A stretch of 64,000 nucleotides of DNA, taken from positions 62,001 through 126,000 of the forward strand of contig NZ_JAILWM010000003.1 in NCBI RefSeq assembly GCF_025698945.1. The letters are read 5' to 3'. The notes beneath the pieces were generated by a model. It did no database searches. It was not told the origin of the DNA and was given only the letters and a program-made list of their open reading frames with translations. Shown here piece by piece: positions 24,540 through 39,249 of the stretch. The position numbers and the translations under genes were made by a program. Positions within the stretch are counted from its first letter, which is position 1, and each line of letters starts with the position of its first letter. Source of the stretch: Nitrosopumilus sp. (GTDB lineage Archaea > Thermoproteota > Nitrososphaeria > Nitrososphaerales > Nitrosopumilaceae).

Positions 24540-25331
24540 TTAAAAATTACCTAGTGTATTTTGCTTTTTTTCTTCCCAAATTAATTCTCTTAATCCTAGT
24601 TCCATCCTTAATGAATTTGCAGTTGCTGGTCCAAACCCTTCATAGTGATTGTTAGTCATTACCATAGCTAATGGAATGTCTTGAATGTCTTTTAGTTTAT
24701 TTGCCCAATCTTTTATCATGTTTAATCTGTCTTTTGATACCTTGCCAAATTCTGAATCAGCAATTGAGCGATCCCCTATTAATCTAACATAAAGATAGTT
24801 TGTTGTAATTGGCATTGGATTGTTTACTCCTGCAATATCATTCCAAACAAGACAGTGTTTGTTTTGTTTTAGATATGATATTGCATCTTCAGAGAACCAC
24901 GATTCATGTCTTCCCTCTATTGGATAAACAAAATCGTCTGGTAGAATTTCAAATAGTTCCTGCAATCTTGGCTTTGCTTCTTCAAATGATAATGATGGTG
25001 GTAATTGCAAAACTAGTGCCGAGATTTTTTCATAAATTGGAGATAATGATGAGAGAAAAGAGAATACTTCGGAATTTACTTTTTCAAGTCTCTTTTCATG
25101 TGTGATTGATGATGGAAATTTTGCTGTAAATCTAAAATGTCGTGGGGTATCAGCATCCCATCGCCTCACTATTTCCTGGGTAGGAATTCGATAAAAAGTG
25201 GAATTTATCTCTGTGATATCAAAAATCTGGGCATAATATTTGAGCCATTCAGAACTCTTTATGCTCTTTGGATAAAATGTGCCAGACCAACCATGATAGC
25301 TCCAGCCAGTACATCCTATCTTGATATTCAT
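24540..25331 (-). CDS. DUF72 family protein
   Basis: The 263-aa protein carries the DUF72/YecE signatures: KIGCTGWSYHGWSGTFYP at the N-terminus, EINSTFYRIPTQEIVRRW, FRFTAKFPSSITHEKRL, a central PIEGRHESWF, and the terminal MTNNHYEGFGPATANSLR. It adopts a TIM-barrel-like fold of unknown function, and the conserved His/Glu/Asn residues suggest a hydrolase or isomerase. It converges with the receiver gene. Confidence 0.9.
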   Translation of the reverse strand: MNIKIGCTGWSYHGWSGTFYPKSIKSSEWLKYYAQIFDITEINSTFYRIPTQEIVRRWDADTPRHFRFTAKFPSSITHEKRLEKVNSEVFSFLSSLSPIYEKISALVLQLPPSLSFEEAKPRLQELFEILPDDFVYPIEGRHESWFSEDAISYLKQNKHCLVWNDIAGVNNPMPITTNYLYVRLIGDRSIADSEFGKVSKDRLNMIKDWANKLKDIQDIPLAMVMTNNHYEGFGPATANSLRMELGLRELIWEEKKQNTLGNF

Positions 25332-25365
25332 AATAAATTAGGAATTGTTGTTGTCTTAAAAATTT

Positions 25366-25466
25366 GAAAGCTGACTATTGCGGTTCAACCTTTACACAGT
25401 CCTGCTTGTATGCTCAGACAGGTAAACAATCGCCTGCATTGACAATAGGGCATTGTGTCAGCTTTC
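25366..25466 (-). ncRNA. Candidate 101-nt hairpin RNA
   Basis: Perfect terminal arms GAAAGCTGAC (25366-25375) and GTCAGCTTTC (25457-25466) are extended by TATTG/CAATA, and internal CCTG/CAGG pairs allow further hairpins. The element is GC-richer than its AT-rich surroundings and has no ORF. On the minus strand a CTTTTTAT box lies about 25 nt before 25466 and a T-run (AAATTTTTAAG) follows the other end, so I favour minus-strand transcription. I do not recognise the family, and a small mobile remnant is the alternative. The rest of the 25332-25716 gap shows only the kinase promoter. Confidence 0.45.
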
Positions 25467-25716
25467 TATTCATAATACGCGTTTCTCAGATAAAAAGAAC
25501 ACCGATATTTTCTTCTAGTTTTATTTTTTTGCGATCAGAAATAGTCTGATGGATAAGTCCTACTTGATGTTTATATCAAAAATATTTAAATTCACTCTAT
25601 GTTCCGCTTTAGAAAGAAAAAAGAATTCGTGTATATCTATATCCCTCCAATTCCCAAAAGAGAATCCTCAGACTAATTTTTATTAAATACAAAAAGAGAG
25701 ATTTGTGATTTTCATC

Positions 25717-26973
25717 ATGTCTCCAAAACAAAAAATATCGATAATTGTGGGTTTTCAAATTCTGCTAATTGCTGGAAGTTTTATGACAATGGTATATCTA
25801 GAATCTAAATGGACAACTCTTGGAAACACAATTGATCAAGCAGGACTAAACAGATTACTAACACTTAGAACTATATTAGAAATTCATAACTTTGAAGATC
25901 GTGGATTAAATTTTGACACTCAAACTATGCCAAAAGTTGTATCACTAGAGTCTCTTAAAGAAAATCTGTATTTGATTAAAGAAGGAGGAATTAAAGATGG
26001 CATTTCACTAGTAAAACTTCCTGAAAAACTCCAAGACACATGGTATCTTGTGGAACAAGACTATGTTATTTTTGAAAGCAGCATTAAAAATTATTTTAAT
26101 TCTGATTCCAACGAACGTCATGAATTACTAATTCAAATTGATACATATGGTGAAAATCTTATTCAAAGTTCAGATAATCTAGTCTCTGATATTGCATTGT
26201 TCCAAGTTGAAATAGAGTTTTTGATAATTAGTCTTCAAATAATTTTCTTGATTGTTAATGTAATTGCACATGTGCTACTAGTGTATCTTATCTTTAAAAT
26301 TCTTAATAATTTTTCAAATGAGAAAATAAAGTTAGAAAAATTTGCAGTAATTGGGGAGATTGGTGCAAACATTGCACATGACCTTAGAAATCCATTAGCT
26401 GCAATCAAAGGATCCTTTGATATACTAAAAATGAAAAAGAAAGATCTTGATGATGAATTTGCAGAAAAACAATTTAAAAAGATTGAAACTTCAATTAACA
26501 AGATACAGTACTTAACAAGAGATATTTTGGATTTTGCAAGAAACCAAGAAATTCAAAAAGAGGAATTTAGTCTTTTAGAATCAATTAAAGACACAATGAA
26601 TGAAATTCCTATCTCCAAACAAGTACAAATCAAATTACCAGAAAATGATTATAAAATTATTGGAGATAAAGTCAAGATTGGTTCAGTGATTTCAAATTTA
26701 ATAAAAAATTCTGTTGATGAAGTAGGAAATACTGGAAGTATTCGAATTGATCTAAAGGAGAATCCACAAAGTGTAGTCATTACAATTGAGGACTCTGGAA
26801 AAAGACTAACAGAAAAGGATGTAAAGAAAATTTTTGATCCTCTATATACGACAAAACAACACGGTACTGGTTTGGGACTTACAATATGTCAAAAAATCAT
26901 AGAGCAGCATGAAGGTACTATTAATGTAAAGGTTAATCCTACCAGATTCATAATTTCATTACCCAAAAAATAG
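25717..26973 (+). CDS. Sensor histidine kinase (PilJ-like sensor part)
   Basis: From ATG 25717 this is 418 aa. TM1 is ISIIVGFQILLIAGSFMTMV; the extracytoplasmic helical bundle starts with DQAGLNRLLTLRTILEI, resembling the PilJ/NarX-type motif. TM2 is around residues 170-195. HisKA has the phosphohistidine in ANIAHDLRNPLAAIKG (about His221). The ATPase domain has NLIKNSVDEVG (N box) and GTGLGLTICQKI (G2 box). No HAMP motif is obvious. A GTG at 25705 is in frame, but a TTAAAT box at 25683-25688 suits 25717 better. Confidence 0.88.
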   Translation: MSPKQKISIIVGFQILLIAGSFMTMVYLESKWTTLGNTIDQAGLNRLLTLRTILEIHNFEDRGLNFDTQTMPKVVSLESLKENLYLIKEGGIKDGISLVKLPEKLQDTWYLVEQDYVIFESSIKNYFNSDSNERHELLIQIDTYGENLIQSSDNLVSDIALFQVEIEFLIISLQIIFLIVNVIAHVLLVYLIFKILNNFSNEKIKLEKFAVIGEIGANIAHDLRNPLAAIKGSFDILKMKKKDLDDEFAEKQFKKIETSINKIQYLTRDILDFARNQEIQKEEFSLLESIKDTMNEIPISKQVQIKLPENDYKIIGDKVKIGSVISNLIKNSVDEVGNTGSIRIDLKENPQSVVITIEDSGKRLTEKDVKKIFDPLYTTKQHGTGLGLTICQKIIEQHEGTINVKVNPTRFIISLPKK

Positions 26974-38667: not shown

Positions 38668-38771
38668 TATAACGAGAAAGCCGTTGTTTTGCGTAGTAAA
38701 ATGATGGTATGGAAAACACCTCATGTTAGAGAAAACGTCCTAGAGTCATGTTTTCCATGTGTCTCGTTATA
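38668..38771 (+). ncRNA. Structured RNA candidate A (twin of 39112-39238)
   Basis: Outer stem P1 pairs 38668-38677 with 38762-38771 (ATAACGAGA with TCTCGTTAT, 10 bp). P2 is a hairpin CCGTTGTTTT ... AAAATGATGG with G-U pairs (38681-38707). P3 pairs 38709-38718 with 38749-38758 (ATGGAAAACA/TGTTTTCCAT, 10 bp perfect), and a smaller inner CTC/GAG hairpin is possible. The GTTAAAT box at 38642-38648 fits a plus-strand start. It ends 36 nt before the DUF1059 ATG, so it could be an independent RNA or a leader element of that gene. No coding frame explains it. Confidence 0.6.
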
Positions 38772-39111: not shown

Positions 39112-39238
39112 GACGAGGCGCTATCATACCAACTAAATCAAAGAATTGTTTTGAGGAAGTTGACAGATAGATAGGAAAACACGAAGAAAGATGGAAACAT
39201 CTAACGATTCGTTTCATAGTTTTCCACTATACCTCGTC
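39112..39238 (+). ncRNA. Structured RNA candidate B (twin of 38668-38771)
   Basis: P1 pairs 39112-39118 with 39232-39238 (GACGAGG/CCTCGTC). P2 is a long hairpin: CTATC/GATAG (39121-39125 with 39166-39170), CAACT/AGTTG (39130-39134 with 39158-39162), TCAAA/TTTGA (39138-39142 with 39150-39154). P3 pairs GGAAAAC (39174-39180) with GTTTTCC (39219-39225), continued by ACGAA/TTCGT (39181-39185 with 39208-39212) and a GATG-GAAA-CATC tetraloop hairpin (39190-39201). An ACTTAAATT box near 39082 fits a plus-strand start. The gap from 38984 to 39111 shows nothing else. Confidence 0.6.
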
Positions 39239-39249
39239 TCCTAATTCGT

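Follow-up and report, generated by a model that had tools for sequence, protein, structure and literature searches.

Positions 25366-25466 of the 64,000-nt stretch of DNA analysed here (hereafter the window) hold a candidate minus-strand gene, which we call RNA-A, of about 101 nt, with its 5' end at 25466 and its 3' end at 25366, as judged from a covariance model match, covariation and a count of G-U pairs. Downstream of it lies a minus-strand gene for a DUF72 protein (24540-25331; PF01904, E 1.4e-50), and upstream, in divergent orientation, a plus-strand histidine kinase gene with HisKA and HATPase_c domains (25705-26973). The element had been described in an earlier note as a hairpin with perfect 10-bp terminal arms in a 385-bp intergenic gap, and most of that description was confirmed. 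The gap runs from the DUF72 start at 25331 to the kinase start, either a GTG at 25705 or an ATG at 25717, and the figure of 385 bp is reproduced when the ATG is taken. The arms are perfect over 10 bp (25366-25375 and 25457-25466), and the element is indeed richer in GC (0.46) than its flanks (0.18 for 25332-25365 and 0.28 for 25467-25704). The reported minus-strand TATA-like box is present as TTTTTAT at 25490-25496, that is, at -30 to -24 with its last base at -24, and the T-run past the other end is a stretch of five T (25358-25362, minus strand) lying three bases beyond the element.

The window contains 12 perfect inverted repeats that reach 10 bp or more and have an outer span of 60-120, compared with an average of 8.4 (range 4-15) over 20 first-order Markov sequences, so the inverted repeat of RNA-A alone is not unusual. 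Its folding energy is low only to a modest degree (z -2.4 on the plus strand and -2.1 on the minus strand). It is conservation, rather than the inverted repeat, that makes the element real. RNA-A is single-copy in its own genome, and plain blastn found it in 23 of 60 Nitrosopumilus genomes, its own included. A covariance model built from all 25 blastn matches (R1) detected it in 61 of 95 Nitrosopumilus genomes, with up to five copies per genome; at the level of the class it matched 75 of 300 genomes, spread over 6 of 69 genera that all belong to one family. A broader covariance model (R2) matched 92 of 400 class genomes, from 6 of 82 genera, all in the family Nitrosopumilaceae. Searches over more than 40 genomes used stricter filters, so that weak copies may be missed in these counts. 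The R1 search gave no match in 34 of the 95 Nitrosopumilus genomes, some of them incomplete, and RNA-A is thus either not essential everywhere or has diverged in these genomes.

The copies fall into three types. Type I includes the copy in the window. Many type II copies have a P1 helix of the form GAAGCCRAC..GUUGGCUUC, and type III has a different P1 (GAAGRCAGAA/UUCUGUCUUC) together with an insert, retains the ACAAUAUCCUAUUGUC hairpin and the GUGUUAC..GUAAAG arm, and is found beside DUF72, UDG or kinase genes. Three genomes (G042, G078 and G049) contain four or five divergent copies each, nearly all on separate contigs. For the tables of neighbours and flanks we used 116 of 120 matches; the four removed were two that repeated a place already counted, one copy truncated at the end of its locus and one 20-bit match. 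The 116 loci include overlapping contigs and very close genomes and comprise 111 distinct RNA-A sequences.

Alignment of these relatives revealed a fold different from the one that the inverted repeat suggests on its own. The conserved structure is a three-way junction formed by P1 (10 bp), P2 and a long P3 arm with an internal loop and a tip, so that the inverted repeat of the earlier note is real but its fold as a single hairpin is not. P1 is formed on the minus strand by the 5' strand GAAAGCUGAC at 25457-25466 and the 3' strand GUCAGCUUUC at 25366-25375. The P2 hairpin (ACAAU..AUUGU, 25442-25456, minus strand) adjoins P1 without a linker, and the P3 arm occupies 25386-25432 on the same strand, with its internal loop at 25426-25428 opposite 25390-25391 and a small hairpin at its tip (25404-25413). 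The inner TATTG/CAATA pairing proposed earlier falls outside this structure, one side lying in the 3' strand of the P2 hairpin and the other in an unpaired joining stretch.

In a first alignment of 25 sequences, 98.7% of cells were in standard pairs, 8 pairs showed two-sided change, and there were 30 compensated cells compared with 7.7 on shuffling (0/500 shuffles as high). A second alignment (A4) contained 62 non-redundant, more divergent relatives and omitted the 14 type III copies, three irregular copies (L101, L118 and L134) and copies more than 0.93 alike. RNAalifold, run on A4 as a separate prediction, recovered both P1 and P3, and 20 of its 26 pairs showed compensatory change; it misplaced P2 as one single pair, and P2 was added by hand to the structure that we scored. 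With P2 added, 96.0% of cells pair, compared with 29-45% when the structure is slid, and 21 of 31 pairs show two-sided change. Looking for covariation in related genomes had been put forward as a check on the element, and it proved positive, with 209 compensated cells in A4 against 69.3 on shuffling (0/500). Two-sided change affects 8 of 10 pairs in P1 and 12 of 16 pairs in the two helices of P3, and individual column pairs were turned over repeatedly, as at 66-85 (GC 29, CG 21, AU 5) and 53-98 (UA 30, AU 15, GC 2). P2 is the weakest helix, because 91.3% of its cells are paired and only one of its five pairs shows two-sided change.

The same alignments point to the strand from which the element is read. 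The RNA-A alignment contains 250 G-U cells and 30 A-C cells, and because G-U pairs of one strand are mismatches on the other, this excess places RNA-A on the minus strand of the window; the R1 score at the element is 107 bits on the minus strand vs 16.7 on the plus strand. The element is best described, as predicted from its sequence, as a small three-armed RNA with no protein product. Among the unpaired positions, conservation in A4 is highest at the A and G of the P3 internal loop (62/62 and 60/62), the U, A and C of the tip (62/62, 58/62 and 56/62; a near-invariant U-A..C) and two pyrimidines in the loop of P2 (62/62 and 61/62). Unpaired bases conserved to this degree usually mark a binding or docking site. 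A kink-turn was considered for the P3 internal loop and rejected, since by eye the loop does not fit the consensus.

As a feature of the sequence, RNA-A has its own predicted promoter at a fixed distance, and the spacing of the TATA box in the window is that of its relatives. Two of the 116 loci were dropped from the promoter table (short or identical upstream sequence), and the TATA pattern matched 104 of the remaining 114, with no match in 10. The box ends 22-24 nt upstream of RNA-A in 92 of these 104 promoters, and in 81 of them, from several genera, a GATC box stands immediately upstream of it. The GATC box looks like a dedicated promoter element or a regulator site. In the window copy it is replaced by GTTC, and GATC-TTTTAT is not enriched in its own genome (56 sites vs 70 for the reversed control); a genome-wide promoter class defined by the GATC box was rejected on these two grounds. 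Between the TATA box and the start lies a partly conserved GCGTA element (25476-25480, minus strand). The combination TTTTAT-N7-12-GCGTA occurs once in the window, at RNA-A, and comparison by eye found the TATA-GCGTA pair upstream of none of the five tRNAs of the window. At the other end, the T-run at 25358-25362 is a likely U-tract terminator, as predicted from sequence, and a T-rich stretch was seen by eye 3' of most RNA-A copies. The start codon of DUF72 in this genome is 27-31 nt downstream of the T-run, which, we infer, may also serve as TATA box for a leaderless DUF72 mRNA.

A second conserved structured RNA, RNA-B, lies on the plus strand of the window at 39112-39241 (z -5.6) and has no Rfam match. 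It occurs in 36 of 95 Nitrosopumilus genomes, and 25 sequences show compensatory change in 13 of its 31 predicted pairs. The two RNAs are linked: among the 36 genomes, RNA-A lies within 25 kb of RNA-B in 27, within 5 kb in 20 and within 300 bp in 13, on opposite strands in 12 of these 13. In the remaining genomes RNA-A is on a different contig (6), has no match (2) or lies 1.19 Mb away (1). The linkage may stem from a function common to both RNAs or from an old locus that they share. One might go further and propose that RNA-A and RNA-B are partners in a single undescribed two-RNA system particular to the ammonia-oxidising Nitrosopumilaceae, as a regulatory pair or as a two-RNA ribonucleoprotein, which we regard as a tentative and rather doubtful idea. 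A shorter sequence resembling RNA-B was noticed by eye near RNA-A in several loci of one genus (g4). A possible third RNA is found at 38668-38771 on the plus strand (terminal stem TATAACGAGA/TCTCGTTATA, z -4.5), and its inner helix, GGAAAAC..GTTTTCC, resembles that of RNA-B.

We considered whether RNA-A could be a cis-acting leader, a riboswitch or attenuator that would form near the 5' end of the DUF72 mRNA and regulate that gene. Three-way junctions with a closing terminal stem are common among riboswitches, DUF72 follows the type I copy in most Nitrosopumilus cases, and in many genomes these copies lie about 35 nt before it. Across the family, however, the neighbours vary. A DUF72-like sequence is downstream in only 28 of 116 loci, and when ORFs of 90 aa or longer are considered, the closest one downstream is in sense and within 150 nt in 39, in sense and further away in 29, antisense in 42 and absent in 6. 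A conserved sense position before related genes was thus found only in the DUF72 subset of Nitrosopumilus, and among the annotated neighbours (VTT, AsnC/Lrp, glucose/sorbosone dehydrogenase, UDG, histidine kinase, MFS, nitroreductase, SRP54 and FUR), for which one representative of each of 10 clusters out of many was annotated, there was no common theme. Another genus (g3) has RNA-A at 100.6-115.8 bits without DUF72 downstream, the window copy has its T-run directly past P1, and in three loci (L033, L039 and L049) RNA-A is intact while DUF72 is damaged. The DUF72 genes of these three loci are truncated, frameshifted or interrupted by stops, which may point to gene decay or, where the assembly is fragmentary, to errors in the sequence; that of a further locus (L045) also looks irregular. 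The varying neighbours and the survival of RNA-A beside a broken DUF72 make a leader unlikely; a role in cis may hold for the Nitrosopumilus type I copies alone. An unusual modification guide of the C/D, H/ACA or another type that existing models miss is also improbable. Small stable archaeal RNAs are often guides, and RNA-A has paralogues with differing loops. The earlier note recognised no RNA family in the element, and the Rfam scan agrees: at the gathering cut-off, Rfam 15 gave five tRNAs only in the window, a relaxed search (E<=10) of 25300-25540 gave six sub-threshold matches that we regard as noise (best 19.1 bits vs a cut-off of 40), and the loci of 20 relatives had no match at any RNA-A copy. 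RNA-A thus matches no catalogued Rfam family. C/D guides have the consensus boxes RUGAUGA (box C) and CUGA (box D), but no TGATGA box was seen by eye in RNA-A, and the CUGA of the window copy is part of P1, where type II has GCCAAC instead. H/ACA guides have an ACA or ANA box a few bases from the 3' end, a kink-turn and a pseudouridylation pocket, but the 3' end of RNA-A is paired in P1 and ends in CAGCUUUC, with no ACA seen nearby. The conserved bases also lie in the internal loop and tip and not in variable guide stretches. Two further RNAs were rejected as identities for RNA-A, as they are located elsewhere in the genome: RNase P RNA (RF00373) at C1:184998-185278 and archaeal SRP RNA (RF01857) at C5:81086-81397.

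The choice between an RNA gene and a MITE had been left open in the earlier note, and the analysis strongly supports the former, as a minus-strand non-coding RNA that has a promoter and U-tract of its own, through covariation and the conservation of the promoter. A MITE or the remnant of one would account for the terminal inverted repeat and for the several copies, up to five, of some genomes, and an 11-nt direct repeat, TATTCATAATA, does occur near both sides of RNA-A. The left copy of that repeat, however, is 30 bases from the end of the element and spans the DUF72 start codon, the repeat has no counterpart in the flanks of relatives, and the check for flanking direct repeats therefore revealed no duplication abutting both ends. 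There is one RNA-A copy in the genome itself, copies stand at positions common to different species, the changes within the element are compensatory and show the G-U bias, the conserved promoter lies outside it, and the P1-P2 pattern was found in 0 contigs of the viral collection scanned. A mobile origin is accordingly very improbable. The simplest explanation of all, a chance inverted repeat in an AT-rich gap, draws on the near-chance frequency of such repeats in the window and on the modest folding z-scores, but the structure is conserved in relatives, and the covariation already refutes it.

Taken together, a conserved minus-strand three-way junction, a promoter at a fixed distance, occurrence at several loci with paralogues and confinement to one family support a gene at this position. 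From these sequence comparisons, we consider it very probable that RNA-A is an independent RNA gene read on the minus strand, and the reading we prefer, to which we would give a probability of roughly 0.8, is that it is a free-standing small non-coding RNA gene of the Nitrosopumilaceae. RNA polymerase would start at the first nucleotide of P1, or within a base or two of it, and would stop in the U-tract. P1 would hold the two ends of the RNA together and shield them, with P2 stacked on it. The A-G in the internal loop of P3 may serve as a docking site for the loop pyrimidines of P2; a pseudoknot between these two sites would leave no covariation, as both are too conserved. The working surface would then be the near-invariant unpaired bases, the A-G of the internal loop and the U-A..C of the tip, most likely as a protein-binding site. 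With such a site RNA-A would act in trans: it could belong to a small ribonucleoprotein as its RNA component, or it could be a regulator by capturing either a protein or another RNA. That it is both trans-acting and protein-bound is a reasonable proposal for which we would hold slightly less than even odds.

In the ocean, ammonia-oxidising archaea are one of the most abundant archaeal groups, and RNA-A is conserved in many of them; to our knowledge their small RNAs have hardly been charted. A text search of the literature, which covered mostly the opening parts of abstracts and few subscription papers, returned no account of RNA-A. The RNA-A family covaries strongly, has as many as five paralogues in a genome, a promoter signature and a linked RNA-B, which makes it a defined target for further study, and its near-invariant unpaired bases would point to a specific partner.

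Several known systems resemble RNA-A in part. Archaeal C/D and H/ACA guides are likewise small archaeal RNAs in intergenic gaps, but RNA-A differs from them in having no conserved C, D or ACA boxes and no Rfam match. Riboswitch-type leaders share with it a three-way junction with conserved unpaired bases and, in many Nitrosopumilus genomes, a place before one gene; in contrast to them, the gene downstream of RNA-A is not conserved and is often antisense, the RNA has its own T-run right after the stem, and its paralogues lie at unrelated loci. Yfr103 of marine picocyanobacteria has several paralogues per genome, a conserved fold, a conserved promoter-proximal element and no assigned function, as RNA-A does, but it is bacterial, 290-328 nt long and of demonstrated expression, and the two are likened by description (PMC5069720). 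A parallel among archaea is Tan1, which the same source describes as an abundant 229-nt non-coding RNA of marine group II Euryarchaeota whose expression has been shown (PMC5069720). Likened by description, Tan1 (PMC5069720) and RNA-A, as predicted here, share the lack of an assigned function and are both lineage-restricted, structured, free-standing RNAs of marine archaea, but they differ in length, lineage and the demonstration of expression.
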